From Isoetes taiwanensis (Eukaryota > Streptophyta > Lycopodiopsida > Isoetales > Isoetaceae), in the NCBI GenBank assembly GCA_021234155.1, contig JAJEKV010000038.1:4834847-4898846 (forward strand): a stretch of DNA of 64,000 nucleotides, given 5' to 3'. A program made the translations under genes and the position numbers. This document shows, one piece after another, positions 11,589-42,375 of this stretch. Below the pieces are notes generated by a model. The model was not told the DNA's origin and did not search any database. It worked only from the letters and a program-made list of their open reading frames with translations. Position 1 is the stretch's first letter. Every line of letters starts with the position of its first letter.

Positions 11589-11702
11589 CGTCTTGAATTG
11601 GCTACACACACATGCCGGACCTAGTCTACTACTGTTATTGCTACTTGATATATCCGACTCTATTCCACCAAATATACTAACCTTTTATAAAGAAAGACTT
11701 AC

Positions 11703-13389
11703 CCCATTTCGCTCAATGTTGCACTAATCTCCGCCAGGTCCTCTCTTGAGGGTATGGGGAGCTTAGAAACCCACACCTCCTCATGGTTGTAATGTAGCGT
11801 ATACATTGTTTGTCCGGTTTGCTTAGCCTGGTTGGATAGGGATCGTTGTGCCTCAATAGAATGCTGTCCGTCAATAATAAGGAAGCATACATTAGGGTTC
11901 TCCACTATTAGCTCTTCTAGTGTTGTCCACTGGAGTGGAGCATCCTTTTTCTTATCCCAAGGAAGCACGCGTCACCGGCATAGGAACTTGGCACGGATTC
12001 CTCACCATCGCCCTCAATATTTCTCTTGCATGCTCGTGGTCATACCTCCCCGCTAACAAGACTTGACTTATGTGATCTCACCAGGCGGTCAACATGGATG
12101 GGATGTGTAAAAGATTGGCCAAGTGGGTAGTTGTTTGCATACTTGACTAGCCTACTCATTGCCTCCAAATGCAATTTCTTTTGAGTCATTTTCTGCCAAA
12201 ATGCCATCAATCATTGCGTGGGGATGTCCTTTCCTAAGTCCAAATCTTCGTACATCCCCGATATCATTTTGATGCTTCATCTCCTCCGGTAGTAACTTGG
12301 AGAAGGTCCTCATAAAGCTCTCCTCACCGCAGACACCCCTTCACTAATAGAAACCGGAGTGAGGACATGATTTTGAGGCCATCCGTACTTGAAACACGAC
12401 TCAGCACTCACGTCCTTCTTCATCAGACCATCTTTGAAAGCAGTTGCCCTGGCATGTGTAAATCTGACGAGATCTTTCTTGTGGTTCTTCACAACCTCCA
12501 CTAGGAGTTGACAACATATGTCATCCTGCTCCTCACAAGTGATAAGAATACCTTGTTTCTTCATAAGATCGGTCTCTTTCTTTCTGGAGTGTAACACAAG
12601 ATCCACCTTACCATTTGTTTTGCCTACATCAACATACCACTCCGCACTATCATCCATCTTCTCCTCGGGGCATGGAGGATCTGTGTCTGCTCTGATAATG
12701 GATCCGCTATCATCCATCGACAATGCATAGGATACTGCGTCCTCATTGGGCTTTCCCTTCTTCTGTGAGCTGGAGCTCGCTGGAGTATCTTCCGAGCCTC
12801 TTGCTTTCTTAGGAGGAGGTGTAGGAGCTACTATTCGGTTTTGTCTCTTCTTCCCTGCAAACGAGGGTGCAATACACGCTTAGCGCGATTTCGGGTGGTC
12901 ATCAATTCCGGCCAGACTAAAGTACAAAATGGCATACAGTCCCCAATTACAGACATGCACTCATAAGGCGTGCCAATTACAGCATGCCGAATAGACACTC
13001 GAAGGTAGGCCAACTAAACATGGTCATACTACTTTACAAATTATAGACAGAACAGTTAATCACGAGAAGGACAATTTAACACAGGAAGGACATTTATTAT
13101 GCAGATGCAAATACAAGTCACTGCAGAAATGAGCAGCTAAAGAAATGATAGACAGGAGTGTGAGCAGCTATAGAAAGTTAAGTCACTGCTACAGAAATAA
13201 TAGACAGGAGTATAGGCAGAAGATACAAAGCAAATACAGTAAATACAGTAAATACAGAGCAAACACTGCACACTAATCAGAGCAATGAACAATGAATGAA
13301 TAACACACAGAATGATGACAATACTGACCTTCAGCACCTTCTCTCGCGGCCCGGCCTGAGTTTGGAGCAGCACGACCTTTGGGCGACAT
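11703..13389 (-). pseudogene. Leftward gene of element A, ParB/DGQHR-like, two exons seen
   Basis: Exon 1 (13389-13329) begins MSPKGRAAPNSGRAAREGAE and ends at a GTCAGT donor. Exon 2 starts after TTTGCAG (12856) in matching phase, with a basic PPPKKARG stretch and then WYVDVGKTNGKVDLVLHSRKK. This aligns with element B (WHVDLAKTNGKLDLTLFSRKK). Near the end it reads LPWDKKKDAPLQW, then NVCFLIIDGQHSIEAQ, and stops at a GTAAGT donor (11697-11702). The IIDGQHS-EAQ motif resembles the xVxDGxHR signature of ParB/Srx-fold DNA-binding or nuclease proteins; this is a tentative match. Stops near 12315 and 12130 and at least three frame changes make it a pseudogene. It shares a short divergent promoter region with the rightward gene. 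Role unknown; a DNA-binding partner of a transposase is my inference. Confidence 0.6.
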
Positions 13390-13502
13390 CTTCGCGATGA
13401 TCTTGAGCACCTCGGAGTTCTTGAGTTCTTGAGCGCCTCGGAGTTCTTGAGCGTCTCGGAGCAAGTCGACAATCAAAAAGCAAGAAATGGAATTCAAAAA
13501 CT

Positions 13503-13510
13503 TATATAGA
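13503..13510 (-). promoter_or_regulatory. TATA-like box for leftward gene of element A
   Basis: On the minus strand the sequence reads TATATAAG about 115 bp upstream of the probable ATG at 13389. Position and sequence fit a core promoter. Not tested. Confidence 0.5.
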
Positions 13511-13556
13511 TTTCCATAAGGCGATTAGGTCGGCTTTCGATCGACGGGTTTCATTC

Positions 13557-13686
13557 GGATCGACTTTTGATCGACGGTCCGATAGAAGCGAGCGGTTATT
13601 AAAATTTCGCGGATCGACTTTTAATCGACGGTCCGATAGAAGGGAGCGGATATTTAAATTTCGCGGATCGACTTTTAATCGACGGT
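13557..13686. repeat. 54-bp tandem repeats in the divergent promoter of element A
   Basis: GGATCGACTTTT(G/A)ATCGACGG recurs at 13557, 13611 and 13665, giving two full 54-bp units and a partial third. The array sits between the leftward start at 13389 and the rightward first exon, so it is a candidate bidirectional regulatory array. Each unit contains a palindrome-like TCGA...TCGA pair. Confidence 0.9.
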
Positions 13687-13742
13687 TAGCAATCTTACGA
13701 TTGGGCCTAATGGGCCGGGCCCGATCGATTTGCAAGCGATAA

Positions 13743-14268
13743 ATGGCTCTACGACCGCCCGTATTGTCAAATCCCATAATTAGATTTCACTCAGCGGCTA
13801 GAAAAGCAGTACAATTAACGGATAATTTGAAACTACCACCTAATCTTGCCGCCAGCCTTTCTTGTCATTCAACTCGAAGAACTTGGAAGAACTCTCGAAA
13901 AGAACTCGGAAGAATCGAAGAAGCCGGCGCCGAAATGATGTCGAGCGCCTTCATGTAAGTTCATCTACTCTTCCAGAACCCAAGCTCCAAATTAATCCCA
14001 TGGTCTTGCGACATTGAAATGCAGTTGGAGAAGAATGCTACATCTTGGCGAAATTTGAAGAGGAGGGTGGGAAATTGCAAGATAGAATCACGATCCGGAA
14101 GCAATCGCCATGGAGTTCCTCTTGAAATGATCATGTGAAGATTCTAGTAACCGGTTGCCATTTCAACGACGGCATTACCCGTAAGGCATCCCCGATGGAG
14201 ACACAAAGGGTGAAAGCATCTAACCTTTGTTGCATGGCCAAGAATTCACTTAAAGAAGGTGAGTTTCA
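13743..14268 (+). pseudogene. Rightward gene of element A, first exons with DUF8039-like module
   Basis: Exon 1 ends at a GTAAGT donor (about 13955) after MMSSAF. A second exon starts after GAAATGCAG (about 14024) and ends near 14268 at GGTGAG. The second exon reads NCKIESRSGSNRHGVPLEM and later FVAWPRIHLKK. It aligns with 27200-27450 of element B (HGIPLGDKYVRV and FVAWPRNRLKK). This pattern resembles the DUF8039-type module seen in plant transposon-associated proteins. Copy A has stops in the middle, so it is non-functional. The gene presumably continues, after a 2.5-kb intron, into the exon at 16748. Confidence 0.55.
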
Positions 14269-15215
14269 TTTTCTTGGAAGACATAGAGGAAGATTGAGTG
14301 CTCATACTTGATTATGCTATATGTATGAAATTAAAACGCTTTGCATGCCGACCATTCATTCAATATTGCAAAACTATAAGGCCTCGCAGACCCGAGCATT
14401 CAGGAATTTAAAAAACACTGTATTCTTTACATGGATGGGATATTCTTTAAAAAACCTGCATTCTTTACATTGTTTTAATTACATCTGTGTGTTATTCATC
14501 TATGTGTTATTCATCTGTGTGTTGTTCCTCGAGTCTCAAATCTTTGGCACAATAGTCTCAAATGTTTGTTGAAAAAGATAAACCGCATACAAGATTCCGG
14601 CAAATAAGATGGTGCAAAATATTGGGATATTACACAAAATGGCTTCGAGGTCCGCAACTCTAATTATCAGCTTAGCATTCTCCATTTCAAGCCCCTCCGA
14701 GCCTCGACACTACTCATTGAATAAGCTTATGCTTGTAGCCTATGCCGCACAGGAGGAACTTCGATTGAATACGGCGCCCGCGTATGTTCGCTTGAATCTG
14801 GCGCCCACGCGAATTCATAAATCTGTAAGTTAGAGAGAAAAACAAATTAGTGATTTCGCGCCATGAGCTAATACCATTCACTTGTAATTTAAATGCCATG
14901 CGTGTATCCTGTATTGTACTTTAAAAGCGTCTTGTAATTTCTTCCGAAAGTCATCATTGTAATTTTTAAATTTGAGAGAGCTGAAGTGAAATCAGCGCCG
15001 AAAATATGTTTGTGTGCAAAATGTTTACATTATGCGGTCCTAATACACACGGCGGAACTGCATAAAGCTAATTATCAGTATGCAATTCACGCCAGGTATT
15101 GGACTGCTTGACAATTTAAACATTTGCACACCTAACATATTTTCAGGCGCTAGGTGATCCACTTCAGCTCTCTCAAAATTAAGAATAAAAGAGCCGAATT
15201 CAAAAGCGAATTAGA
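14269..15215. other. Intron-like AT-rich DNA of element A
   Basis: No gene is seen. The segment 14470-14525 has three short repeats of GTGTTATTCATCT. It contains the isolated motif TTCACGCCAGG (about 15086-15096), related to the palindromes of element B. It is probably part of the large intron of the rightward gene. Confidence 0.45.
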
Positions 15216-15468
15216 AGAAATTACAGTTATGCTTTCAAGTTAGAGTTGACACTAAAGAAACATATTGCAGTCATTAAATCCTTGTATTGCCATTGAAAAT
15301 TTTTACATAGGGCCTTTTATTAGAGTTGCCAGAATTCAAAACAGCTTCTGCAGAAATTACAGTTCTGCTTTCAAGTTAGAGTAGAAACTAAAGAAACATA
15401 TTACAGTCAGTAAATCCTTGTATTGCCATTGAAAAATTTTACATAAGGCCTTTTATTAGAGTTGCCCA
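15216..15468. repeat. Tandem duplication, about 115 bp, in intron of element A
   Basis: Positions 15216-15330 and 15353-15468 are near-identical. Both run from GAAATTACAGTT through CTTTCAAGTTAGAGT and AAATCCTTGTATTGCCATTG to CCTTTTATTAGAGTTGCC. They lie just downstream of the antisense acidic gene. Confidence 0.9.
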
Positions 15469-15615
15469 AATCACGTGTTTACAAAATTACAGAAGTTCTA
15501 GGCAGTTTAAGGAGATGCCTAGCTCCATTCATAATCCTCATTTGAGGCCTTTTTTGGAGATGCCCAGCTCGCTCTTCTGAACCAAAAACTAAATAACAAA
15601 AACACAAAAAAAAAA

Positions 15616-16152
15616 TCAGCCCTCTACCTCCTCCTCTTCTTCCTCCTCCTCTTCTTCCTCTGAGCTTTCATCTGCCATCTTCGTCAGGATGTCTTCGGCA
15701 GCATCTTCGTCTTCGGAGGAGGAGAGGGCGTCCATAATCAGCTGCTTTTTTTCTTCTTCTAATTCTTCCCGCCATTCTTCATCTGCTTCCTCCATTTCTT
15801 CTTCTTTTTCAATCTCGTTCTCCATCTCCTCATCTGAATCAAGGGGAGTATGGGGGGACTCGAGCTCTTGGTCTTTGGTGCTCAGATAATCTTTTCCCGG
15901 GCGAAGCTTGCCCTGCAGAAATAACTCCTCGCAATTATCCAGACTGTGGTGCGGAAGGCAGCCACAGCGGCATCTGCAGGAGGGGGGAATGGATTTCTTT
16001 ATCAATTTTTTTATCTGCCTCTTCGCCGAGTCCGGCGAGATGGAGCGGGACGAGGCCGGGCAGCATGGCTCACCATGGTAGAAGGCGCTAGAAATCAATG
16101 AAGGCGCTAGAAGGAAGAAAGGATTGGCGGTTGAAAGAATGGAGGGTTTCAT
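15616..16152 (-). CDS. Acidic Glu/Ser-rich protein, antisense gene inside element A
   Basis: An intact 178-residue frame on the minus strand. The first 30 residues are hydrophobic and Ser-rich. A basic KRQIKKLIKKS segment and a cysteine cluster (CRCRCGC, about residues 60-66) follow. From about residue 100 the protein is almost all Glu, Asp and Ser (SSEDEDAAEDILTK, then a poly-Glu run of 11). I do not recognise a family. Element B has a comparable antisense acidic gene at the same place, which argues for a real conserved gene and not a chance frame in a CTT/CTC repeat. Acidic tails of this kind often bind histones or basic DNA-binding proteins; that is inference only. No intron is needed. Confidence 0.55.
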   Translation of the reverse strand: MKPSILSTANPFFLLAPSLISSAFYHGEPCCPASSRSISPDSAKRQIKKLIKKSIPPSCRCRCGCLPHHSLDNCEELFLQGKLRPGKDYLSTKDQELESPHTPLDSDEEMENEIEKEEEMEEADEEWREELEEEKKQLIMDALSSSEDEDAAEDILTKMADESSEEEEEEEEEEEVEG

Positions 16153-16184
16153 GCAAAATGCGAGGTTTCTTATAGGCGCGGTTG

Positions 16185-16500
16185 TAATTATGATTCCATC
16201 ACATTATACAAGATTTATATCATATACGAATTACCTATCATTACTTCTATTGAATTAATTACGCCCTAGGTTATCATTAATTCTCTATAGAATTACCCAC
16301 ATGTCAGCTATACTTAAACCCTATGTTTTCATTAATTTTGTATAATTACCTAGACCCCAGCTATACTTACAACCAACTTTGGCCCATCTAGATTTACGAC
16401 TTATACTTACCTCATTAGTACTACTAGCATACACCCTATGTTACCATTAATTTTGCAATAATTACCTACACCTAAGCTATACTTACAACCTATTTTTGGC
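16185..16500. repeat. Degenerate tandem repeats upstream of DUF7869-like exon
   Basis: The phrases AATTACC(T/C)A, AGCTATACTTA and CCCTATGTT(A/T) recur at roughly 100-bp spacing, about three times. They appear decayed. They lie between the acidic gene start and the exon at 16748 and could include its promoter or intron sequence. Confidence 0.55.
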
Positions 16501-16747
16501 TGCACTTACAACATATATTTGTCCATTTAATGGTTTTTTTGGTATTTCTTAAAGTTCCCTTTAATCGGTTCTCAAAATTACTTTGTCCTTTTTTCGAATT
16601 AATATTAAGACATTTCACTTTATATAGGTGAAGCGTGTGGATCCTAAAAAGGGTAAAAATGTAATACCTATCCCCCCAACATGTTTCAACATTGTTACCA
16701 CATGTTCTTATCACATTGTTACCCCATTGTAAACATTGTTCTTGTAG

Positions 16748-19600
16748 GTCAATGCTGTGGACCACCCAAAGGGTGTTGAGGCTGAGACTACTAAGCAAAT
16801 TATCCTCTCAAATGGGTTGGATTGGAAGAATAAGAAGGTGAAACTGAAGCACCAATGCAATAAGGAGCTAGTAGGTGAAGGAACTATCATACTAGCTGAT
16901 CCTATCCAGGCTGTCAATGATGAAAGGTTAGGAGAGGATAAAGTGGGTGTGGCTATAACAAGTTTAGAGGAAAAATGGAAGGAAAAAGGATCAAATCACC
17001 AGGATTGCACTGCTTGTATTAAACAATTGGAGGTTCCATGCATCATGCCATGGCCTATAGCCTGCATTGAGTTTATAGGAGAATTCCTTTTACTAGAGCC
17101 AGAGGTTGTGGATGACACTGATTTTCTTAATGCACCTCCAATAGCTGCCAGGACCACATTTTCAGAGAAGAGGGCACACTCAGTGGTGAAACATTATCCT
17201 AGCAAGAGGTCCAAGTCAAGTAGTGATTGTTCACGTGAAGCTCTGACTAAGGTAAGGGGAATGGAATGTTGTTGGGCTAATTGTGTTCAGAAGTTTGAAA
17301 TTGATGAATTGGTGGAAGCAAGAGCCACCTTCCAAGAGTATACTTGTGATGAGAGGAGGACTTACATGTACTCCATTCATGAGCTTGCACTTCAAGATGA
17401 AAAATTTCCAAAGAAAAAAAAATACCCACTGCTAGGGACATGGATATGTAAAGTTGCATGGATACATATTCATGGCATTCCAATTTCATCTTGGCAAAAT
17501 TGGCAAGCAAGTCATGCAAAGGGGAGTAAAATTGCATTAGATGGAAATATGTTGAGGCCAACTTCTAGGATCCTGGCTGCTAGGGAGGTTTTTGAAAAAT
17601 ATGTTGAATTCAATGCTGAGAATATGCCACATAAAAGTAGGAAAGATCAACAGGGAAAAATAGTTGTCGAGAAGAGATTGCCATCCCATTGTACCCAGAA
17701 GAGCATATTGGAGGAAGTGAATGCTTTGCTTCGAGAACTACAGGTACCTGCAATATCTCAACACAGCTTCAGTAGACTATGGAGCAAGCACTTCAAGCAT
17801 GTCACTATAGACACTTCGAACAATTTTGCAAAGTGCAACTTGTGTGCTAAGTTGAAAGAGATTCTTGATAAGAACAAGCAACCAAGCCAAAGGGCTAAGA
17901 TAAGGGAGCAAATGAAAGATCACATGACAGACCAACTATCATGTAGATCCACTTATTGGATGTGGAGAACATTATCATGTTTGGAACCCAATAACTATGT
18001 TTGCATTATACATGACAAGATGGATCAATCGAAGACTTGTTTGCCACAGTATAGTTACATACCCAAGCAAATCAATAGAGCTTATCCTTTGCAAGTCTCT
18101 CTGACAGGTGCAATAGTGCATGGCTCGGTGCCAATTTATTATGGCCATTTTTATTTGCAATTGTGGAGTGATGGTCCTGATTTTCATATTGGAAGTGTGA
18201 TGAGGTGCTTGAGGAACTATGAGAGTGGTTATTCTAGTGACCTCCACAACCCTGGAGGTGGTAGCCAACCACTCTTCAGTGCATTGTTGGATAGAAAGCC
18301 TAATAATTTAGAGAAGTTTACTAAGGCAAGGTTTAGGAAGTCGGTGCTTCAACATGTTGGAGCCTCAAGTTCACGTCCCCAACCTCGAGATCTACCACCA
18401 GGTTCCTCCTCCAACTTGACAATTGTCTTTGAATGAGAATAAAAACAGGTATATGTTCTCATTCCTATCTTATTTAACAGCCGTGGGTGTCGTTGAAAGA
18501 GTGAATTTAGGGTTCTTAATGCCTGGACATACTCATGAGGATGTGGATGCATTGTTTGGGAAGTATAGTGCTTGCGGTTGAAATCTCAAACGCGTGACCA
18601 ATCTTCCTAGACTAATGGAAGTTCTTAGTGAATACATTTCACCTTCTCCTATAGGGTTGATCATACAAGAGGTGCCTGATTGGAAGAATTTTATCGAAGG
18701 TTATGCTCTTGATATGGAAGGTCAATCTAGACCTCTTCAGTACACTTTCTGGGTCATGGGAAAGAAGCCAATCATGCAATGGAAGATGAGACCTTCAGAT
18801 GATAAATGGAGGCCAGATGAGGGAGTACCTATATGGCACGAAGATGAAAATGGTAAACCTAAGATTCCAAGGGGTCAACCAAAAGCTCTTAAGCCTTTTC
18901 CAGAGGTGGATTCATTGCAAAGCACATTGGACGGCATTTTTGAATACATCAAGTATTGGAAAAATAACCCCGATGATACCAACCTTGCATTGATAGATTA
19001 TTGGACACAGGTACATGGATTATTGGGACAAGTAGACACATCCTCTGATGAACTCAAAGATGGATGGCTACCTAAGACTAGGTGGAGAGACTTGATAACA
19101 CCTGAGGAAGCTGATGATGTGGTTAGTAGTATTCGCAAGTCCATGGCTCCTCCAAATTCTTTGAAAAACACTATGTTGGTCCTAGGAAAGGAAGGCCTAA
19201 ATATCTCGGGCTGGAGGATTATGATCCCAAAGATGACTTGCTTTGCCATCAATTTGCACTTATAGTACCAGAGCGCAAAGAGATATACCCTGTGTGGATG
19301 GGTTACACCATCTCAGAGGTTTGCAAAGAAGTAGGTGACCGCAATGTGAACAAAGTTCGTGTGGAGTGGTGGTGTCCAGTGCACCAGTTAAATGCAGTGG
19401 CAGAGGAAGAAAGGTATAGAGACTGTTGGACAAAGAGATGGAAGAGAAACCCTATTGAAGGGGATGATTGGGTTGAGTTAGATACTATTTTGTTTTCATG
19501 GACCCCAAAGGTCATCCCAGACAAGACTGCTAGGGTTACAATACCCGTGGAAGTGAGGAAGAAAGCTATGATATCTCTAGGGGTCACTTCTGAGAAGTAA
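16748..19600 (+). pseudogene. DUF7869-like protein of element A (putative transposase), frameshifted
   Basis: The exon begins after a TTGTAG acceptor. An N-terminal module (NKKVKLKHQCNKELVGEG, ILADP, LGEDKVGVAI) looks like a second DUF8039-type repeat. Then come ECCWANCVQKF, EARATFQEYTCDERRTYMY, a zinc-finger-like KCNLCAKLK, CIIHDKMDQSKTCLP, and LWSDGPDFHIGSVMRCLRNY. After a frameshift near 18430 come NENKNRYMFSFLSYLTAVG and FLMPGHTHEDVDALFGKYS, the signature I associate with DUF7869. A stop (18579) and a second shift (near 19245) precede the C-terminus, which has a VWMGYTISEV...VRVEWWCPV module and ends TSEK. DUF7869 proteins are widespread, repetitive and uncharacterised. The DKMD, LDN and HEDVD acidic residues suggest an RNase H-like nuclease; this is my inference. 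Confidence 0.75.
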
Positions 19601-19734
19601 TTGGCAATATGTAACTCGACATGCATATAATTTTTAATGCAATCATGTTGTGCTGTTATAAAAAAAAGTCACATTCTCAATGCAAATTTACTAACCCGGG
19701 AAAAAGTTGCAGTGCCAAAATGGTCCAAAATCCT

Positions 19735-19766
19735 GACATAAATCCAATTTAAATGAATGATGGTTT
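19735..19766 (-). repeat. Right terminal inverted repeat of element A
   Basis: Read on the minus strand it begins AAACCATCATTCATTTAAAT and ends TTTATGTC. It matches both ends of element B with only a few substitutions. Flanking sequence after 19766 is unrelated to that of element B. Confidence 0.85.
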
Positions 19767-21280: not shown

Positions 21281-21501
21281 AACCCTCTTATTAGTTGGCG
21301 ATATCTATGTTGTCTCATCCTATAATCCTTATAGTTCACGGGTTGCATGAACACTTTGTAGCACTGGCAAAGGTTGCGGTGTAAAACATTTTTGCAGCAC
21401 TTATTCTTGGGCAATAGTAGTTCATATTTCCGTGGGAAAAGTGATGGAAGTTATTTTCTTTTAGCATCTACATATAGCTGACTTTTAATTTGTTCTAGTA
21501 G

Positions 21502-21533
21502 AAACCATCATCCAATTAAATTGGGATTATGTC
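21502..21533 (+). repeat. Left terminal inverted repeat of element B
   Basis: Begins AAACCATCATCCAATTAAAT and ends TTATGTC. It is the reverse complement of 33900-33931 with two substitutions. Confidence 0.88.
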
Positions 21534-24500
21534 AACTCCAAAATCACGCCAACCTGCTATTGTCTTCTAGGGGGTTTTTGTTTTTTTTAATCTTTTTTTT
21601 TGGACTTCAAAAATAACATAAGGTTGCGATTCACGTGTGACTTTTCATATGCGAATTGAAATATGCAGAAATGAAGAGCAAGTTGCTAACATAGATGAGA
21701 CAAATATTGCTTGCTCGATAGATGATAATATTAGGTTTGATAATAACAAATTGCATGGAACGCGAGGCACTTCCAGACTCGAAATTATCGATACATGGCA
21801 CAAATATCATACAAAAATATCATATATTCCAATAAAACATTAAGGGATCAATCCATGTTTTTCAACGTATTTAACAAGGTGTGGTTCCATGTCACCCGTT
21901 CTATCCAGCTTGGGTATGCGAATCTAACACTTCACCCAATCATCCCCCCATAGCCAAATTATGCATAATAGACACAAACTTCACCCGTAAAATCATCCGT
22001 CGCAAAGTTATTTGGATCGTAAGATGGTGGATTCAGGGCCTGTGTTTGATTGTAGAAGCATTTGAGAGCATCATCATCCACTATGATTATATCATCCTTA
22101 TTCTCGATACCAAGTTAGGCCCATCATGTTACTCAAGTGTTTGATGAAGATAGGCTTGCTGTTGGATCCTTGGGATTAGTGAACTTCACACATTTGTTCT
22201 GATCCCAAAGGGTCAACCAATGTCTCACGCATTTCCCCAGTGCCTCCAAAGTATCCTTGATGTTCCTTAGTTCCATGGATGACCAAATACCAACTCGAAA
22301 TAACCCAAATGCCTCGTCTAGCATCTCCTTCAAGTGCGACGGGATAGATCCACTTGGTGTTTGATTCTCACCGGTGTCTGATGAAATTGTTCTCTAGCTT
22401 CATGTGAATACACTTTATTTTTCGGAAAAGTCTTGCAAAGGACTCGTTTAGGTCGAACACCACAACCTTCTTAGAAACGCAATGGAAGTTGAAACATCAA
22501 ACATGTATCCGGTCAACAAGATACGATAACACAAACAATACAAACGCCGCAAGCGTGATTTGAAATAGTCATAACCAAATCGCTAAACTCGGTGATTTAG
22601 TTTGACAACGAAAAATAATCAAAACACGCTTGGCGATTTAATTCAAAGGTAATACAAATTAAATCCGCGGCGTGGCGCTATTTAAATGGGCAAGGCCATA
22701 CCTATCATCTTCGGTTTATTTTAGTCATCGGCCATTCTCCCTTCGCCACCCCCTTAATCTTAGTCTTCTTACATTTGTTAGAATTGTTATTTTCTATTAG
22801 TTCAACGTCCTTCACAACCGACATTATTTTACTATTGATTTGGCAAACACCGTGAATCACTAGAGCCGCCTTCCGTTGCCTTCATTTTTCTGCCCCACAT
22901 CAATTAGTTCATTGTTAACTTGTGAATCTACTCTATTGTTGCTTGCATCACCCATAATGTGGGCAAAATATTCCCTAAGTTCGCCATCACGATTACTTTG
23001 AGCAACCAGGTTTAGCAGCTATTTGTTCATTCTTGCTTTCCTTATCGGGCTCTTGATTACTAGTTCCCACTCCGAAGCAACGCCCACTTTCGAATTGGAC
23101 AAGTCTCACGAGACTTTTGATTCTTTGATGATTTCAGGTTGCCATAAGGGCCTTTAGGAGACTTGGCAAGCACATGCATGAGGAATGGTTCAAGAAAGTC
23201 TTTGGCCTGCTCATCACTCACAAAGCAAAGTGACATCTTCTTGCACCCATAAGAGCCTCTCGGGCAATATAACCTCCAACATGAAGCTCAAGCGTGTTGT
23301 ATCAATTGGAGCAAATGCCTCGACGAGGTAAGCAGCCATAGACGGGGAAATCCATTTTTATTTAAGGGGCCCTTCTCCTTAGTTTGTAGCTCGTGCCTTG
23401 ATTTCCCCACTTAGGAGGGGTCCCGATCCTCATCCTCTTCCTCGACTCATCCTCATTACGACCGATCCCGATCCGTATGAAAGAATATAGTTCTTAAGTC
23501 CGGATCATCTAGAAGAAAACATTCCCATGCCTTCGCTATTGTCACCCTTGGCCTTAGCAATATCATATTCCTCGTCCCCGACATGGATATCATAATAAAG
23601 ATCACATGTGCCATCTTCCGTTACGTTCAAGACTCATTATCCTTAACATCATATATTAGGCATCCCTCCCTAATAACTTTGAGGCACTCCGGATCATGAG
23701 CAGCCGAATAGTGCATCTGGATGTGACTCACCTCGAAGGACAAACGATGACAATAGTGAAGGACCTCTCGGTTGTCAATCCTATACGCCTGGTAAAGAAG
23801 CTCTTGTAGTCCTTCGGTTCATGCCCATATCTCCTCTCCCACCCTGTTTGTCCAACACAAAGAGTGATATATTTTTAAGGCCGGTTGAATCGGCAAGAGA
23901 CCTTTGTACCCAATGGAGACCCAATCTTTGGATGAGTGTCGTCTTCTCCGGTAATCTTCTTCACAAGGGCCACTTTTCTTCTCAACTCGGCCAAGCCTTA
24001 GGGGTAGAGTCTCCTTATGTTTTGTATTTTTAGCCTTCCAATTCTTTAGGAAGTCCTTTGACCGTAATACAAACTTCTTGATGTCATCATTCATGACCTT
24101 GTATTTGTCCGAAAATCCAATTTCGGATAATGCCACATCCCCGATAGCCTTTTTGTAACTCAGCTCCTACATTTGACTTCATTGTAATGTACATCCTTTA
24201 CATGATCATAAAGACTCAACGGGACATCCTATCCTTGGTGAAAGCACCCTTCTTGTATAAGACTTCCTTCTTTAAGCACCGGTCTAAAACCCAAATGGTC
24301 TCGGTGCCTAGCCCCTGAGTCTTTCTCATCTCTGTCACATTCAAGTCAAAGATGCTTACATCAACAGGAGGCACCCTACCCATAGTATCTGGCAGCTTCC
24401 CTTGTGCATAAGCGTCCTAGAATTCATTCCACTTGAGCCATACTGCCTCCTTACAAAACACAATCTTATACGAGTCTGTTGGTCCTGACTTGCTGGATGA

Positions 24501-24791
24501 GCTTTCAGAAGGATCTGCAATGTCATCACCACCTTTTTTCTTTGATTTTCTTGCAGTCTTCTTCTTCTCTCAGATAATTGTTCATGCGGCGAGTCCGCTC
24601 CAGCGGCTTGAATGCCTCCTGGACTTTGACCATGCAATACGGTGGGCAATGGGCAGCCATATTCCACCCATGTTGACGGCCGGCGTATGCGGTTGTTCAA
24701 CGTATGGACTGCAATAGTACGACATTGAATCAAGATCATAGAATAGAAACACGGGGTACTTGATTTGAATAGAATTGATGAAGAGAAAAAT

Positions 24792-25006
24792 CACGCTGGC
24801 GTGAAAATGAATAAAGTTACTAATGCAATTCCAGCCAGTGCAGCTTTCCAAATCAAACCAATTCACGCCCGGGCATGTTTTCAAATCAATGAATTCACGC
24901 GTGTTTTCAAATCAATTGGTTGACTTGAAAACACGCTGGCGTGGAATCGATTGATTTCAAACACGCTGGCGTGAATTGGTTTGATTTGAAAAGCACGCTC
25001 GGCGTG
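24792..25006. repeat. Cluster of CACGC-N2/3-GCGTG palindromes (intronic)
   Basis: Perfect copies lie at 24792-24803, 24932-24943, 24962-24973 and 24994-25006. Degenerate copies lie between them (CACGCCCGGGCATG, CACGCGTG). Spacers share ATTGGTTTGATTT or its inverse, so the whole cluster is a nest of direct and inverted repeats. It sits in the intron after the IIDGQHS exon of the leftward gene. Confidence 0.9.
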
Positions 25007-26217
25007 AATACAATTTATAAAACCAGGTTGATTACCTTTTGTATAGAAATGTCTTCCCCATTTCATTCAAAGTTGCACTTATCTCACCAAATCTGCGAGG
25101 TGAAGTATTGGCATCCAAGATCGACACCTCCTATAATGATAGTGATTGTAGAACACTTTTTGGCCTGTTTGTTCTCGGCCGCTTTTGCGATGATGGCCTT
25201 TTGTGCCTCAACGAATGCTGCCCGTCGATGATGACATATTTAATATCATCACTTGATAATAGCTCTGGACGTTCCACCACACAAAGAGCTTGTTCGAGAT
25301 CATATCCCAAGGTAGCACATCCGGCATAGGCATTTGACTGGATTACTAATCATGCTCTCGAACAATCTCCATGGCATGTCTTTGGATCATATCTTACGCT
25401 AACATAAATGGAGCTTGGTGAACGGATGAGGACTTCACATGGATCGCAAAAGTTTCCTTAAGACCCAAAGGATAATGGTCGAGTATTTATTCAAATTGTT
25501 CATGGCCTCTAGTTTGCGCCACTCATCCTGTTCATTCTCAAAAAATGAAGCCTCCATGCCTTCGACAACCGGGTTGAACATCCTTCCCTAGATCTAGGAC
25601 CCTCTTAGAAGCTTTCAAGTCAGCTAATTCCCTAGCTTGCTGCAAATAGTGACTTGGTGTCGGGTTTAGTGAACATGCCTCACGCACATTTATGTAACCC
25701 CTTGGCAAATAGATATTGGCGTAATCGCTACATTGGTTGGCCAACCATACTTAAAACATGTCTCACCGCTCACATCCGTCTTCATGAACGTATCCTTGTA
25801 TCACGAGCTCTCTACAAAGAGTAAGTCCGAGCGCATCTTTCTTCCGCCCATGTAATCTCCAAGAGCAATTTGCGATTGGTGTCATCCTCTTCCTCACAAG
25901 AGATTAGGATCCCTTGTTTGGCCATCTTGTGCCGCTTCCTTTTTCCTCGAGAAGAGAGTTAAGTCGAGCTTGCCATTTGTCTTGGCAAGGTCAACGTGCC
26001 ACGGCACCCTCGTCCATTTCCTCTTGAGGCGGGGGTCGATTGGTTGCTATAAGAATCGCCCTTCATCATCTAAGGTGAGATCATATGGTACTGCATCCGG
26101 GTCGCCCGCCCTTGCTTTCTTGGCAGGATTAGAACCTGAATTAGTAGGGGTTTTCTTCCTCTTCAGCACTGCAAATGAAGATGAGCACTTTTTAGAGTAC
26201 TTTTCAGAACAAGAAAT

Positions 26218-26268
26218 CACGCTTGGCGTGCATTTAAACCTAAATTAGTACAAATCACGCTTGGCGTG
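26218..26268. repeat. Two CACGCTTGGCGTG palindromes in intron 1
   Basis: Identical 13-bp palindromes at 26218-26230 and 26256-26268 lie in the intron between exons 1 and 2 of the leftward gene of element B. An AAATTAGTACAAAT spacer separates them. Confidence 0.9.
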
Positions 26269-27099
26269 TTGGTATCTCCTATTATTGACCATGCTATGCG
26301 TTAATTTGAAACTAAATTATTTTGCATCCACATTTTAAGCTACATACCCTTCATGAATCCATATTTCACACTATTTAACCTCATTGAACATTGCTATCTC
26401 CAACTGTCTAACACCGCTATATTCTATATATAAAACAGAGCAAAATTATGTTCTACAGAACGGACAATCAGAGCATTAACTGATGTTAATACTTAAAATT
26501 CATGCAAAGCATAATAACTCAAACTCATGCAAAGCATATTATCTGAAGGCAAGGAAATATCTCAAATTCATGCAAGCATAATACTCTCCACACAGTGTGT
26601 ATTCTGTGGCAAATTAAATACCTTGAATAGGGTTCTGTGTATTCTGATCAACGTCCTCTGAAGCTTGAGAAGAGCCGGGTTTAGAGATTCCTCTTCCACC
26701 GCTTCCTCTGCCCCGTCCGCCTCGACCACCTCTGGTTTTAGAAGACATCTCCGGAGTCGCCTAGTAACAGAGTCGGAAGGTCGCTCGGATACGCGCTCGA
26801 GCTGCTCGAAGAAATAGCTTTTTCTACCTGTACGAGAAATAGAGAAATTTGAATTTCAAGAAAACACAAAATGCAGTTTCGAAATATTCTTGACACATAC
26901 AAATAATAATGACGAAGACCCGTCCGCCGACTTCTTTCATTAAGTTTTTAAAAACCAATCTACCCAAAAAGTATCCATGAAATTTATCCCGCCTAAACGT
27001 AGTTAACCTAATCTTTCTTCTAATTCGAATTTTCCCGACCGCCAGAGTTTCCATAGCGCCTTAAGCTTCTCAAATCAGCTTCAGAGACTCAAATCAGCT

Positions 27100-27450
27100 T
27101 CTCAAGAATGGCTACAGAATTCTGGTACTCATCTCATTCCAATAGCTTGAACATTAATTTCCAATAGTAGGTGTCTGAATAGCAATTTTCTGCGAGTTAA
27201 TCGAAGATGAATGTTTCATGTTAACTACAAATCAGAAAAGGAAAGTAGGATTATGCAAGATCGACTCCATCGATCCGACTGTAAACTGTCATGGAATTCC
27301 GCTCGGGGATAAGTATGTCCGAGTTACAGTGATTAACTGCTGCGCTATGGATGAAGCTTTACCTCGCAGACACCCCGGTGGGGATACGGTTGGAGAAAGT
27401 GTTGGAACATTTGTTGCATGGCCAAGAAACCGCTTAAAAAAGGTATGTAA
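27100..27450 (+). pseudogene. Rightward gene of element B, first exons with DUF8039-like module
   Basis: A short first exon probably begins MATEF at 27108. It shares the divergent promoter region (26749-27107) with the leftward gene. The second exon (about 27199-27450) is open: ECFMLTTNQKRKVGLCKI, NCHGIPLGDKYVRVTVI, MDEALPRRHPGGDTVGES and FVAWPRNRLKK, ending at a GTATGT donor. The pattern resembles the DUF8039-type module of plant transposon-associated proteins (from memory). This exon is intact in B but broken in A. The gene is thought to continue, after a 3.4-kb intron region, into the exon at 30824. Confidence 0.6.
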
Positions 27451-28250
27451 CATGTATTACATTGTAGAACTATAGAAGTAGACAAAATTTGTTGTATTCA
27501 TTGGAAAAAGATTACAATTGTATATAATCTGGATAAACCGGATAAACCGGACAAAATCCCGGACTCTTGTTTCAAGCCCGGTCTCTTGAGTAGGCTGGGC
27601 TATCGATCTCCCATTTCCATTGCAGGGGCATAGTGAATTCTTACGGTAAAACCCGGCAAAAACACCGGGCTCTAGCTCCACCACCCCGCTTTGCTCCACC
27701 TCCACCTCCTGCTCCTGCTCTGCTCCACCTCTGCTCCATTGGTTGAACCTCCAATGCATCATTATAACGCTTCTTGATAGTGGTTCCATTGGTTGAGCCA
27801 TCTCCATTGCATCGTTATACCTTTGTGATAGTGGTTCGTGTTTGGGGCATCCGGGCATAGAGGCTAACCACTAAGAAACGCATGACTCCTCATTTTGAAT
27901 CTCGTGGCGGATGCGAGATTCCTCTCGATCAATGCATGTACTTGCATTCTCGAGTGATTAGATAAGAGGCGAGCCTCCGATGCGATTGCAAGGGCCCCCC
28001 AGGCGAGATCTATCATTGCCTGGCGCTCTGCGCCATCATCATTACTTGATCCAAGTACTCGGGGGTTGCAAGATCGGTGCTCCAGCCAGAAACCGGTGCT
28101 CATTTGCGTTCAACCGGGATGGAGATTGGAGCCAAACTGGAGCCGGGCCGTGTGATTGCTGGCCCAAATGTAATTCCAATCCATCTTAAGTCACCAACCG
28201 GGTGATTAATGTAACACGGCATCTATCAATAGGAAGTGGCCGGAATATCG
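27451..28250. other. Intron-like DNA with a 46-bp tandem repeat
   Basis: Two minus-strand frames (27457-27858 and 27864-28103) have no recognisable domain. One contains an imperfect tandem repeat of CAACCAATGGAACCACTATCA (about 27715-27840). GC content is higher than in the flanks, which hints at an old coding insert. I assign no function. Confidence 0.4.
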
Positions 28251-28255
28251 GTATT

Positions 28256-28557
28256 CACGCTGGCGTGTTATATTTCTTTATTTATAAACTTAGAAACTAA
28301 GAGACCACGCCCGTGTTTAAGCGTAAAAGTTGAAAGTAGGGATACAATTGTTTGCACGCTCAGCGTGTAAACTGCTATATAGGAAAAACTATACACGCTC
28401 GGCGTGCATTCAGCAGCCAGCGTGTAAATAATTGCCTGGCCTTTATCTATTTACTTATCTAACTGTACAGGTTTTTTTTTTCTCCCTCCCTGCTGAATGC
28501 ACGCCGAGCGTGTATTCATGTTGAAGGCCAAGGCTACCATAAAACACGCTTAGCGTG
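28256..28557. repeat. Second cluster of CACGC-N2/3-GCGTG palindromes
   Basis: Perfect copies lie at 28256-28267, 28355-28367, 28394-28406, 28500-28512 and 28545-28557, with half-sites between. Central bases vary (TG, TCA, TCG, CGA, TTA) while the CACGC and GCGTG arms are kept. That pattern suggests selection or derivation as a binding palindrome. Confidence 0.92.
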
Positions 28558-29127
28558 TTTCAAATATTATCTTTCAGATTTTTCTAATGCTTTCTACTAC
28601 ACTTATTCATAATAGAAACTTGCATGCAATAGCATGATTAATTCAGGAAGAGAAACTCAAGAATTTACTCGAAACAAAAAGAAGCAGATGAAGTTTATAA
28701 AAAACTATTCTGGTTTTCATAAACATCATCTGCTTCCTCTGCCTCGAGCAAATGCAAAAGCTTGTCTTCTTGGATTAAACCTGCCATTGAGATGCAACTT
28801 AAAACTAAATGAAAACTAACCTTGAGTTCTGAGGCTGGAAGGATTCGAAGAACGGAGGACTATGCTTGTGGTTTTAATTCCGAGGCTTTTCGATTCATGG
28901 ACCTTAGTCCTCCGCTTTTGGTTTTAATTACGAGTCTCCGATTTCCTCTCACTCTGAGATGCTTTCTGAACAAAAGGCGGAGTCTTTTAGTAAGTTAGGA
29001 ATTGCCGAAACCAAACATCTAACATTGATGAATATAAATCCGCTCACCAAGATTTCGGGACGGCGGATCCAAACACAGCAGAAGCGCAACCGGCAAATCG
29101 TATGAAGGAAGGAAGAAAATGTAGGAA

Positions 29128-30480
29128 CTTTGAGAGCGTAAAATGGATTTATATAGGCACAATTAGAAAAAAGTTAGCGTGAATAATTGATTGCTTGAAT
29201 TAACACACTTTGCGTTCGGTCTTCCCTTGGGACATGACATGTATATGGTATATATGGAGAATATTGCATTTCATGCAATAAATTCTCACGGCATTTTATT
29301 CCATTTATTGCATTCGAAAAAATAGAATTTAGAAATTTTATATAGGCTAACTTAAAATTGATTTTAAAGGCAAAGTTATCAAGGCTAAAAAATGACTTGT
29401 AAGGTTGGGGAATTTTTTTAGGTCGTATAGGAAAATTTCCTATGGTTACTGTGATGCATCAGAGATTTCTCATGTGGTTGATTTATAGTGTTCCCGAGAC
29501 TTTGTTGAGACAAAATTTGCAGATACAAAATTCTAGAGAGACAAAATTTTAGAAAAAACTTGGAGCCAAAATAATTGGAGAATCTGATTTGATTTTATCC
29601 AAAAAATTTATGTACTGTAAAAAACTGTTTGAAGAAAAAACTGTTTGAAGACAAAGTTTATAAAGAAAACTGTTTGATTTCATTAAAAACAGTTGTATGT
29701 ACTGATGCCCAAGGCTTAGAAGCCTTGTTGCCCAAGGCTTTTCACACAATTCTGAGAAAAAAATGCCCGGGGCGTGTCCAAAACTTCTGTAAGAATGGAA
29801 ACAAAAAAATGGGCGCGCCGGATCTGCATCACTCTTCTTCCACGCCTGCAACAAAGAAGAAAAAGAAAGGTGTTAGAAAAAGAAAGAAAGGTGCAAAACA
29901 AAAACAAAAAAGAAATCACATGCAAACCGGGTTCATCTCTTAACCACTCCAAAAACTGGTGGTGTGATTGTCTTCCTCCTCCTTCTTCTTCTCCTCCTCC
30001 TCCTCCTCCTCCTCCTCCTCCTCCTCCTCCTCCTCCTCCTCCTCCTCCGAGATTTCATTCTCTGTTTCAGGGTCAAGCCAACCCTGAAGCAGAGCGGTCA
30101 TGTGCTCTTGGGAGGACATCTCCTCCTCTTCCTCCTCTTCCTCCTCTTCCTCCTCTTCAGAATCAGAGGAATCAGAGGAGCTCAACTCCTCCTCTTCCAT
30201 AACGAAATCAGAATCATCCTCTGAATCGGAATCAGAGGAGAATTGGGAAAGAAAATCAATGAGGGGGGGGGAAATGAGCGGGTTCTTCAACCCGACGTCT
30301 CTTTGAGGAGACCTCGGGTTCTTCATGAAGGTCGAGCGCTGAGGCTGAACGCTTCATGGCGGGCAGAAAAAAAAATTGGGACAGAATGGAGGTCTTGAGA
30401 GCGTGAACCGGATTTATATAGGGTTAATTAGCTCTTAGCGTGAATAATTTATTGCCTCAAATAACACGCCAGGCGTACGA
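29128..30480 (-). promoter_or_regulatory. Duplicated minus-strand promoter-like segment (29128-29215 and 30391-30480)
   Basis: Two segments of about 85 bp, 1.26 kb apart, share GAGAGCGT, GGATTTATATAGG, AATTAG and TTAGCGTGAATAATT. On the minus strand each offers a TATATAAATCC box. The right copy lies just upstream of the acidic gene start at 30357. The left copy lies upstream of a short minus-strand frame near 29104. They look like a duplicated promoter. Confidence 0.55.
29940..30357 (-). pseudogene. Acidic Glu/Ser-rich protein, antisense gene inside element B
   Basis: The frame from 30326 gives 128 residues dominated by Glu, Asp and Ser (SSDSDSEDDSDFVMEEEE, MSSQEHMTALLQGW, and poly-Glu runs of about 13 and 20). 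A better start is the ATG at about 30355: KRSASALDLHEEPEV, then SSKRRRVEEPAH, a nuclear-localisation-like basic stretch. It joins the acidic frame only if one base is lost or gained in the poly-C run at about 30264-30271. The poly-Glu tract is encoded by a CCT/CTC microsatellite. It corresponds in position and composition to 15616-16152 of element A. No family is recognised. Confidence 0.5.
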
Positions 30481-30823
30481 AATTCCCGCCAGCTATATTA
30501 TCTAGGGTATATTATTATGGATAATAAATTCTCACGTCTATTAGTTATATGTCTTTTCGTAATCATATATCCAAATTTTCGATAATTAAAATTTGGATAT
30601 ATTTATATAAATGTCATTTCCTTGTTGTTGCCATGAAAATTCTTGTTTTAAATGATCGTTTACGCCCATTGTTATTATTATATTAAACCTATTTCCAAGG
30701 AATTTCTTGCTTTTAAAAAAATTTGATTTACCTCTACATATTCCATAAATGTCGTTACTTTTTTATCTTATGGTGTAATAATTTTTTCTTACTCATTGAC
30801 TAAAAAGAGTGCAATTTGCCTAG

Positions 30824-33730
30824 GTCAATGGTGCCTCTCCAACTCAAGATGGTGTGCAACATATTGAAAAGAGCAATATCAATGAAAAACCAACTCCTAG
30901 CAAGAATGTTGAAGAAAAACAATTAGTCCTCTATAGTAGGGTGCAATGGAGGAACAAGAAGGTGAGAATCATGCACAAGTGCAACAAGGAAATAGTAGGC
31001 CAAGGAGTCATTGTGCTAGCGGATCCCGGTCAAGTCAAGTTAATGATGAAAGGCTAGGGGAAGACAATATTGGTATTGCAATTTCGATGTTGGAAGACAA
31101 CCGGAAGGTAAAGGTTTGGGTGACAAGGAATGTTTTGGTTGTGTCAAGCAATTGGAGGTTCCTTGCATCATGGCATGGCCTATAAGTAGTGTTCAATTTG
31201 TGGAGGATTATATTTTTCCGAGCCCGAGGTTGTTGGGGACAATGATTGTCTTGATATTGATCCATTGGCAGTTGGAACTCTAAACCTAGGCAAAAGGGGA
31301 GAAGTATCAGTTGCCAGACATTATCCTAGCAAAAGAGCCAAGTTGATTAGTGACACCAAACGTGAGACAATGGTGAAGGTTAGGGGCTCAGATTGTTGTT
31401 GGAGTGATTGTATGCAATTCTTCACAATAGAACAATTGGTGGAAGCAAGAGCCACTTTTCAAGAGTACACTGTTGATGAGAGGAGGACCTACATGTACAC
31501 AATCTTCGAGCATGCACTTCAAGATGAAAGAAACCCAAACAGAAAAAGATACCCTTTGCTAGGCAAATGGATATGTACAAAAGCATGGCAGAGTATCCAT
31601 GCAATTCCAACTTCTTCATGGCATAATTGGCAAAGAAAACAGGCAGAGGGGAACAGGATTGCTTTACATGGAAATAATGGTTTGTTGAGACCAACAGCTA
31701 GGACCTTGGCTGCCAGGGAGATATTTGAAAAATATATTGATTTCAATGCAGAGTCTATGCCACACAAAAAGCGTAAGGGATGAAAAGGGAAGAGCGGTTG
31801 TTGAGAAAAGGTTGCCATCACATTGTACTCAAAAAGAGTATTTTGGAAGAAGTGAATTCCCTACTCAGAATTGGGAATTCTTCCAATATCCCAACCTAGC
31901 TTTAGTAGGTTATGGAAGAAGCATTTCAATCATGTCACCATAGCAACTTCAAACAACTTTGCAAAGTGCAATTTATGTGCTAAGTTGAAGGAGACTCTTG
32001 ATAAGACTGTGTAACCTAGTCAAAGGGCTAGGATAAGGGAGCATATGAAGGACCATATGACTGACCAACTATCATGTAGATCATGTTATTGGATGTGGAG
32101 GACTTTATCTGCATTGGAACCCAATAACTATTTATGTATTATACATGACAAGATGGACCAGCAAAAGACTTGTCTTCCACAATTCAAGTACATACCAAAG
32201 TCATGTGGCGGATCATACCCTTTACTGATCTCAATGATCAAAGCAATCTTGCATGGGCAGAATCAAACCTACTATGGCCATTTTAGTTTGGAGTTGTGGA
32301 GCGATGGTCCAGATTTTCATATTGGGAGTATCATGAGGTGTTTGAGAAACTATGAAAATGGATACAATGGTCACCTCCAGGACCTTACAAAATAGCCGGG
32401 CACTACATAGAGCATTGTTAGATGGAAACCCTAACAATATTGAAAAGTTCAGCAAGGCAAGGTTTAGGAAGCATGGGTCTAATGAACATGTTGGAGCTTC
32501 AACTTCACGTGCTAAACCTCAAGATCTACCCAAAAGGTTTCTCTTGCAACTTGATAATTGTGCTTTGGCCAAAATAAGAACAGGTGGATGTTTTCTTTCC
32601 TATCCTACTTAACAGCTGTGGGGATATTTGAAAGAGTTAATTTAGGGTTTCTTATGCCCGGGCATACCCATGAGGATGTGGATGCATTATTTGGCAAATA
32701 TAGTTGTATACTTGAAGCAGAACAGAGACCAACTTTCCTAGGCTAATGGAAATCTTGCATGAATGCACTACTCCAAACCCTATAGCTTCTCTCATAGAAG
32801 AAGTGCCCGATTGGAAGAGCTTTGTGGATGGTTATACATTGGATCTTGAAGGTCATTCCAGGCCTCTGCAGTTCACTTTTTGGGTGAGAGATGGGATTCC
32901 AATCTTCCAATGGAAGATGAGACCTTCGAGGATGAGTGGAGAGGAGGGGAGGAAATATGGCGTGAGAGATGAGAATGGCAAGCCTATGATACCTCTAGGT
33001 CAACCAAAAGCTTTAAAACCTACTGAAGAAGTGAAGCAATTGGGATTGACTAAGGAAGGAATCCAAGACTATATAAAGCATTGGCAAACCAATCCAGATG
33101 ACACCAACCGTGCCTTGGTGGCTTACTGGAAGAAGGTGATTAACCTGCTGGGGGAGATAGACACATCCTCAGATGAATTGAAAGAAGGGTGGTTGCCTAA
33201 AACTAGGTGGAAGACCTTAGCAGGTGTTTGAGGATTTTGATGACACTTTGTAAGTAGCATTCGCAAGCAATATGCTCCTCCTCCTTCTGACAAACACTAT
33301 GTTGGTCCTAAGAACAATAGGCCAAAGTTTCTAGGCATGGATGCTTATGAACCTTCCACTGACTTGGAATGCCACCAATTTGTGGTAGTAAAGCCATCAG
33401 ATTTAGATACATATCCAAAGTGTGGTTGGGGTTCACTATCTCCGATATTTGCAAAGAAGAAGGTAATATTAACTTCAACCATGTGCGGTGGAATGGTGGT
33501 GTCCAAAGGCATCGCTTGACCAACGTGTCGGATAAAAGAAAGGTACTTTCATTGTTGGACAAAGAAATGGAGGAGAAATCAGAAAGTGATCCCGATCTTT
33601 GGCTAGACTATGAAAGTGTTTTGTACTCATGGACTCCAAACACTATTCCAAATAGAAATGCGAAATTACAATACCTCCGGATGTCAGGAAGAAGGCTATG
33701 ATATCATTGGGGGTGCTTGAAGAAAGTTGA
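30824..33730 (+). pseudogene. DUF7869-like protein of element B (putative transposase), frameshifted
   Basis: The exon starts after a TTTGCCTAG acceptor at a site equivalent to element A. It shows RNKKVRIMHKCNKEIVGQG, DERLGEDNIGIAI, SDCCWSDCMQFF, EARATFQEYTVDERRTYMY, an inactivated copy of the KCNLCAKLK segment, CIIHDKMDQQKTCLP, LWSDGPDFHIGSIMRCLRNY, then LQLDNCA. After a one-base shift come NKNRWMFSFLSYLTAVG and FLMPGHTHEDVDALFGKYS. The C-terminal part (32746-33231) has EVPDWKSFVDGYTLDLEGH and FTFWVRDG. At least six frame breaks are present (near 31055, 31780, 31990, 32395, 32575 and 33230). The protein would be about 950 residues. The assignment to DUF7869 rests on the DNC...NKNR and GHTHEDVD motifs and their spacing. 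Confidence 0.75.
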
Positions 33731-33899
33731 ATAACTATGTAAATTTTTGTTATCACGTTTTTATGATATGGTGCTATATTGTGAAATATTGACTATTTTG
33801 TAAATAACATGATATTACGTTTTCATAATTTTGAGGTGAAATGTGTGAATTTGAATATGCTACTAAAAACATGCAATATGAAATTTGTCCCAAAATTAA

Positions 33900-33931
33900 G
33901 ACATAAACCCAATTTAATTGAATGATGGTTT
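33900..33931 (-). repeat. Right terminal inverted repeat of element B
   Basis: The minus strand begins AAACCATCATTCAATTAAAT and ends TTTATGTC. It pairs with 21502-21533. Confidence 0.88.
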
Positions 33932-34749
33932 AGACATGGGCAATCCGCAAAAGCATTTAACTTCAATGTATTACTTGGGGCATTTAAGTAGTCATTTCTT
34001 GTTCATCTTATTTATTCTTCCACCCTAGACCTTGTCTTTTAAATTCTATTATTACATATCTGGTCTATCGCCTTATGGGTTCTTTTTTATCATGGTCTAA
34101 CACTGCCTCTCTTTTTTATTCTAGCTATGTTACCGTGTCTTTGCCAACAAAATTTGGATGAATACCTTCTTTTGGTTTCCCATATATCCTTTTGTTAGTT
34201 GTAGCCACATTTGGAGACATCATTCAGGATTGTTCGATGTTACATTGTCATGTTATAGAGCTTTTTTCCTATGAAGATTCCTTAGTTGATCAAATCTTCG
34301 CAGATTTTATCCTCCTACTACTTTGTACAAGCTTAAAAAAGCTTCTAGTGCCTCAGAAGGCAAATTGCGGTTTAATACTTGGCCTCAAGTCGAGATCTTG
34401 TTCTTTTTATCATATTATTTGAGGTCGGAGATTTCCATGTCACGATTAGATGATATTCTGGATTGCTTGCTCTAGCATGATGTATTTTGTGGGTTGCTTG
34501 ATTAGCTTAAGCTTTTACATTTGCTTGTTGTTTGTAAGATTTTAATCACGTTTTTGTTTTATTTCAATTTTCAGTTTCTTATTTGGGATCTAGTTATTGT
34601 TTCTACAATCTCGTGTGGATATGTGCTCCCTTTTTACCTTGATTCCTAGCTCTTGGTAGCATTCTAATATTAATAACCTCGTGTTCTATCCCATTCAAGG
34701 AGGTTTCTTTGTACAATACTTGTGGAATTTTCTAGATAGTCATATATAT
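33932..34749. other. Unassigned DNA, no gene seen
   Basis: AT-rich, pyrimidine-rich sequence with no coding motif. It may be intronic or intergenic. Confidence 0.45.
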
Positions 34750-41661: not shown

Positions 41662-42374
41662 TGTTAAAATGCAGTTATCATGTGATATTAGCAGAATTGT
41701 ATGAATAAATTTGTACAGTTGAGTTGATCAGTGATTGAAATTCTACAGGTAGCAGGATAACTATAATACAAGGGGATGAGTGACCACATCTTGGCTCCCC
41801 TTGTAGAAAACATGAAGTGCTTGGGCTTATAGTTGTGTGGAAATAGGTTAAGGTTGTTTGACCTAAAGGAAATGAAATATTGAATAATGTAAAGGTTCAA
41901 TGGTCGAATAGCTCTTTTTCATTATCAGGCCTGTGGGATATATGTCTGTGAATAGAATCCTTTGTAAGGCAAGTTTATCCTGCCCATAACCGCCGGATCT
42001 GCTCCCATAACCATCGGAGTTTGAATATATAACATAATTTGAAGCTGATGAAGTATATACACAGGGGGAACAATGCCGGATGCTGACGAATAGGCTGAAA
42101 CTTGAATCCGGTCAAAGAAGCTACAGTAACAGGGTCAATCCCGTTGCTACAGTAACATTTAAATTTTGGATTCAATGGTTTAATGACCATTAGAATAATT
42201 TGAAGTTGAATTGTGAAGTTCTAAGGTGGCTATAGACTTGGAATTTGTTGTTGTGGAAATATTCTTCTTATAGTACAATTGTGAAGTATCTATAGCTTAA
42301 ACAATGAATTGAGCAACTTTGATCTAGTACTTATCTAGGTAAAGTGAAGGCTTGTAGTGTATTAAAAATCATCA
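41662..42374 (+). repeat. 5' LTR of copia element 1
   Basis: A 713-bp LTR. The 3' copy lacks about 95 bp corresponding to 42170-42265 and carries a MITE. The two are otherwise closely similar. Confidence 0.93.
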
Positions 42375-42375
42375 T

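Follow-up and report, generated by a model that had tools for sequence, protein, structure and literature searches.

Does a 12.4-kb unit bounded by inverted repeats in the lycophyte Isoetes taiwanensis represent a mobile element, and if so, of what kind? The unit, element B, lies in a 64,000-nucleotide stretch of DNA (contig JAJEKV010000038.1 of assembly GCA_021234155.1, positions 4,834,847 to 4,898,846; hereafter the window) that also holds a diverged relative, element A, and an earlier note written from the sequence alone had singled it out as a candidate for an undescribed mobile system. Comparison with the whole genome strongly supports the view that element B is mobile DNA bounded by these repeats, and we place at roughly 0.65 the probability that it is a 12.4-kb cut-and-paste DNA transposon of the DDD/E type whose best placement is in or beside the Sola superfamily, as drawn from features in common with published Sola elements. 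The coordinates of its features are collected in Table 1.

Element B extends from AACCATCAT to ATGATGGTT (positions 21503-33930; 12,428 bp), and its terminal inverted repeats (TIRs) are 31 bp long and identical at 29 of 31 positions. The sequence AAACCATCAT occurs three times in the window (at 21502 on the forward strand, and at 33931 and 19766 on the reverse strand), with 0.39 occurrences expected. The earlier note had described a 32-bp repeat; the 32-bp ends do agree with each other at 30 of 32 positions, but this is one base too long on each side. The outer A/T at either end belongs to a 4-bp sequence, TAGA, that flanks the element on both sides as the target-site duplication of the window copy, and the element is therefore 21503-33930 and not 21502-33931. 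The similar end at the right of element A, also pointed out in that note, matches the right end of element B at 30 of 32 positions and the left end at 28 of 32; the window contains no further match to the 32-bp end at up to nine substitutions.

The genome containing the window, as searched, comprises 1,658,258,908 bases in 1110 contigs, and both ends recur in it with different surroundings, as the note had anticipated for a mobile element. When the best 40 of 1016 first-look candidates for the left-end 199 bp were scored, 35 (including the window copy) were identical over all 199 bases and the remaining five over bases 2-199; the best 40 of 1172 candidates for the right end were all identical. 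Only these best candidates were scored, and the copy number thus rests on the loose first-look counts. Flanking sequences differ at every locus fetched (30 of 30 for the right end and 8 of 8 for the left). Three other full copies of 12.26-12.45 kb are 90.6-92.7% identical to element B along their length, and a fourth is 87.9% identical over a matched 8.2 kb. Across the right 6 kb, eleven copies show pairwise identities of 87-94%, and the spread of the family was therefore not a single very recent burst.

The target duplications and empty sites that the note had proposed looking for were found as well. Both ends were sought for 14 other copies and located in ten, nine of which carry an exact 4-bp duplication (TATG, CTAC, CTTA, TTGA, TATA, AGTA, ACTA, CATA and ATGA); the tenth, C1056, has no common 4-bp duplication, and the other four (C457, C155, C1026 and C1105) have no right end in the fetched stretch even at up to eight substitutions. 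When the flanks of the window copy are joined, four places elsewhere match them through the junction: two at 90-91% identity (bases 2-200) and two at 85-87% (bases 39-200). The best two of these, paralogous empty sites, read straight through when fetched, with one TAGA each. For a second copy, C55, 39 of the best 40 of 227 matches to its joined flanks cross the junction at 81-84% identity, the fortieth being the right half of the filled site. Three of these empty sites were fetched and all are contiguous, one with a single TATG and two having diverged at that point.

The rightward gene points to the means of movement. The note had called it DUF8039/DUF7869-like, of which the DUF7869 (PF25273) part stands: pieces from the window score 15-21.6 bits by themselves, under the curated cutoff of 26 (the element B piece at E 1.7e-4), and two intact relatives exceed it with 125.6 (L067) and 126.4 bits (L068), the E-value given for intact relatives being 2.3e-36. 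Scans of the window and of Isoetes frames gave no match to DUF8039 (PF26133) at E <= 1; 10 of 32 homologues have it. These 32 came from 2597 candidates in a protein search with a region of a longer frame; with the frame of element A as query, at least two matches were obtained (7998 candidates listed). The core of the homologues is modelled with a predicted RNase H-like fold of DDD/E transposases, with D, D and then an E/D/D group at the right places, such that the third catalytic residue would be E or D. In public DUF7869 proteins, as in the Isoetes protein, HDKMD and QxDN are invariant, and GHTHEDxD is present in 24 of the 26 aligned; unlike the reading offered here, those proteins carry no annotation as transposases. 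The DUF7869 protein is likely a DDD/E-type transposase, a view that builds on the predicted fold and the position of its candidate catalytic residues.

Among the homologues, a 459-aa database protein from a JGI source (P0003) is a near relative from outside this assembly, sharing 82% identity with the Isoetes transposase across half the query. Another (P0005) is modelled with Tudor/KOW-like and BAH-like folds at residues 1-196 and 934-1049; the Ectocarpus paper (PMC12477816) describes a Tudor domain in a transposable element, there a Gypsy element, as a first report. Viral and bacterial/archaeal contigs scanned with alignments of the transposase and of the ParB-like protein described below yielded no relatives, and Foldseek comparisons with the PDB and with viral models gave no match at E <= 0.001.

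What, then, is the closest named relative? In the portions of PMC10741241 that treat it, the Sola superfamily is described as having a DDD transposase, duplications of 4 bp and TIRs that range over 11-1124 bp. Its members are mostly 2-9 kb long, with some above 15 kb; they are known from the moss Physcomitrella and seem to be uncommon among flowering plants, and SOLA elements are given as abundant in Azolla (PMC6786969). Element B shares with Sola the length of the duplication and a TIR within the range, its transposase being predicted to be of the DDD/E type, and differs in exceeding the size of most members and in its accessory genes, which the same portions of PMC10741241 do not describe. 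The nearest precedent is the 21.5-kb Sola1-1_Ec32 of Ectocarpus, reported in PMC12477816 as a large DNA transposon in which a ParB-like gene likewise lies opposite the transposase, there fused to a DNA methyltransferase in a 1104-aa protein; in element B no methyltransferase is supported, and a gene for an FCP1/NIF-like protein and an acidic frame are present. The note had held that no named superfamily has this combination of genes. That statement is weakened by the Sola features and the ParB-like gene of a Sola-1 element. The exact set (a ParB-like gene, an FCP1/NIF-like gene, an acidic frame, palindrome clusters and a DUF7869 transposase) was not found in the literature searched. Term searches of the main text of the Isoetes genome papers returned neither Sola nor 'DNA transposon'.

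The most substantial alternative is that DUF7869 constitutes a DDD/E lineage of its own, an undescribed superfamily having only the 4-bp duplication and TIRs in common with Sola. Pfam lists DUF7869 among its domains of unknown function and the literature searched does not name it, the contig scans found no bacterial or viral relatives, and the ends and duplications alone point to no single named superfamily; against this, Sola offers precedents for the 4-bp duplication, the predicted DDD/E core, the size and a ParB-like gene on the strand facing the transposase, and we consider a separate superfamily unlikely, if still deserving of weight. It is highly improbable that the element belongs instead to another superfamily with duplications of about 4 bp (such as Ginger, Chapaev-type CMC or Academ), since no integrase or other named transposase model in Pfam matched, only DUF7869, even if the duplication length by itself would permit such a placement and some IS481EU elements have about 4 bp. 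That the unit is immobile, a segmental duplication or a chance inverted repeat, deserves practically no credence: nothing was found in its favour, the duplications, differing flanks and empty sites contradict it, and the empty sites of the window copy with their single TAGA refute it.

A placement with or next to Sola leaves the other genes to be accounted for. The divergent gene pair that the note had recognized is indeed there, with both members broken by stops and frameshifts in the window copy. The main exon of the leftward gene encodes about 400 aa and ends with the motifs RRYDPxHA...PxDVLPW...IDGQHS; it is open in four fetched copies, one of which has IDGHHS, and a genome search gave 4166 first-look candidates and 131 matches, many without internal stops. 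The label ParB-like, taken over from the note, is suggested by these motifs, with weak profile support: two of three frames scanned match DndB (PF14072) at 12.8-13.0 bits (E 0.055-0.061), under the cutoff of 29.1, and in none of the three does a ParB-type or DndB profile exceed its cutoff. The protein resembles the DndB / ParB-like (DGQHR) proteins of PF14072 in IDGQHS and the residues preceding it, and differs from them in falling below the Pfam cutoff, in belonging to a plant element and in showing no outside homologue among the 7989 candidates listed in a search with a composite of the leftward gene. Its ratio of nonsynonymous to synonymous substitution (dN/dS), from frames chosen for being open, is 0.41 and 0.47 in the two unsaturated of six pairs, the other four being saturated.

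Beyond the ParB-like exon lies a middle segment that may, by analogy, have been a methyltransferase, a hypothesis that draws on a likeness by eye of one part to motif I and leans on the Ectocarpus precedent; a methyltransferase was looked for there in Pfam, NCBIfam and PDB and was not supported. Adjoining the left TIR is a gene absent from the note's list, which in the frame-joined reading of the window copy matches PF03031 above the curated cutoff (E 8.7e-8; 32.4 bits against 21.8) and has no PDB sequence match. This FCP1/NIF-like gene has 5131 first-look candidates and 150 matches in the genome, many with open frames, and its dN/dS is 0.24-0.54 over six pairs of four frames that were likewise chosen for being open. 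At the place of the DxDx catalytic motif of FCP1/NIF phosphatases, the four frames and the window copy have DLN, and because motif I is DLN rather than DxD phosphatase activity is uncertain. No PDB sequence matched the leftward proteins at an E-value below 0.1. The antisense acidic frame reported in the note is present; it is short, has a counterpart at a like place in element A, and could be recognised in four when 14 other copies were scanned.

These genes are linked. We counted neighbours within 13 kb among the scored places for the transposase (115 of 115 rows), the ParB-like gene (123 of 131, eight second fragments of listed places being omitted) and the FCP1/NIF-like gene (149 of 150; the omitted row, C1035:16173319, has no listed transposase or ParB-like row within 13 kb). 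The ParB-like and FCP1/NIF-like genes form 15 pairs, 15 of 15 on the same strand and 14 with the latter 3.0-8.5 kb downstream. The transposase is on the opposite strand in all 10 of its pairs with the ParB-like gene, which lies 4.5-11.5 kb behind it in nine, and in all nine with the FCP1/NIF-like gene, 8.4-12.9 kb behind it in eight. By chance, 0.2-0.3 pairs of each type are expected. The exceptions number one per type; those involving the FCP1/NIF-like gene join element A to element B in the window, and the third is a transposase/ParB-like pair at C1018 with another arrangement. The lists contain the best-scoring places only, and the counts are therefore lower bounds.

Element B further contains 11 palindromic sites of the form CACGC-N(0-3)-GCGTG in three groups, where a first-order Markov model gives a mean of 0.013 and a maximum of 1 in 300 runs; none is present in the other window stretches tested. 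Three other full copies contain 7, 10 and 5, which is not independent evidence because these copies are close kin of element B. Element A has no full palindromes and eight half-sites of a variant form at 11347-11587, a place matching the first group; half-sites by themselves are unremarkable, with 15 also in positions 1-10579. The ParB-like protein may bind these palindromes, which are candidates for its target sites.

Taken as a Sola-like transposon, element B would be excised by its DUF7869 transposase binding the 31-bp ends, and inserted through a 4-bp staggered cut. The ParB-like protein, encoded on the opposite strand, may bind the internal CACGC-N-GCGTG palindromes and serve as an accessory in transposition or as a marker of the element's own DNA; the FCP1/NIF-like phosphatase and the acidic protein would be further linked cargo. 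A bolder and rather doubtful proposal is a self-marking land-plant transposon with one co-inherited accessory system, in which the ParB-like protein (possibly a ParB-methyltransferase) would bind the parS-like palindromes and modify the DNA or pair the ends, a transposase with Tudor-/BAH-like folds would steer insertion, and the FCP1-like phosphatase would act on host transcription.

Table 1. Positions in the window of the features of element B and of element A.
Feature	Position	Strand	Basis or remark
Left target-site duplication, TAGA	21499..21502		Single TAGA in empty sites
Left TIR, 31 bp	21503..21533	+	Sharp boundary at 8/8 fetched left-end loci
FCP1/NIF-like (HAD) phosphatase gene, broken here	21850..22496	-	PF03031, frame-joined reading
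Middle leftward segment, broken here	23080..24660	-	Open frames in copy L082
Palindrome cluster 1, four CACGC-N-GCGTG sites	24792..25006		Half-site cluster at corresponding place in element A
ParB-like gene, main exon, broken here	25040..26184	-	Frames of ~400 aa open in other copies
Palindrome cluster 2, two sites	26218..26268		
Possible first exon of ParB-like gene (MSSKTRGGRGG...)	26620..26748	-	Reading frame only, join putative
Palindrome cluster 3, five sites	28256..28557		
Acidic reading frame	29940..30353	-	
DUF7869 transposase gene (likely), broken here	30870..33730	+	DUF7869 profile; colinear with element A at 72%
HDKMD codons, two invariant Asp (candidate first catalytic Asp)	32147..32158	+	
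Invariant Asp codon of QLDN (candidate second catalytic Asp)	32553..32555	+	
E, D, D codons of GHTHEDVD (one the candidate third catalytic residue)	32672..32683	+	
Right TIR, 31 bp, 29/31 identical to left	33900..33930	-	Sharp boundary at 30/30 fetched right-end loci
Right target-site duplication, TAGA	33931..33934		Single TAGA in empty sites
Element A, diverged second family copy	11600..19765	+	Right end at 19765

The right TIR of element A lies 1.7 kb to the left of element B, and its left end was not recognised in the window. Over 2.8 kb the rightward genes of the two share 72% identity, and what remains of the leftward genes in element A is colinear with element B; as judged from their sequences, both elements are members of a single family. 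Both are dead, their genes broken, and copies with open frames are present elsewhere in the genome. At 11331-11602, element A has dense perfect 27-bp inverted repeats, a 102-bp direct repeat and variant CACGCC-N-GGCGCG sites. Adjoining it is an element at 2405-10578 with gag-pol-like frames, flanked by long terminal repeats (2405-2961 and 10008-10578) that are 92% identical. To the right of element B, copia-like retroelement readings at 42366-46238 and 52949-59875 have flanking repeats in common, the second including protein-kinase-like frames, recognized by eye, at 55983-57548. An inverted repeat at 57262-58232 has 395-bp arms, 97% complementary, with 181 bp between them.

DUF7869, a domain of unknown function, thereby gains a probable function, that of a DDD/E transposase, in a type of element that is abundant in a lycophyte genome. 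Linked extra genes such as the ParB-like and phosphatase-like ones are rarely reported in transposons. Algal transposons have been reported to carry ParB-like accessory genes, and the present element suggests that a vascular plant has them too.
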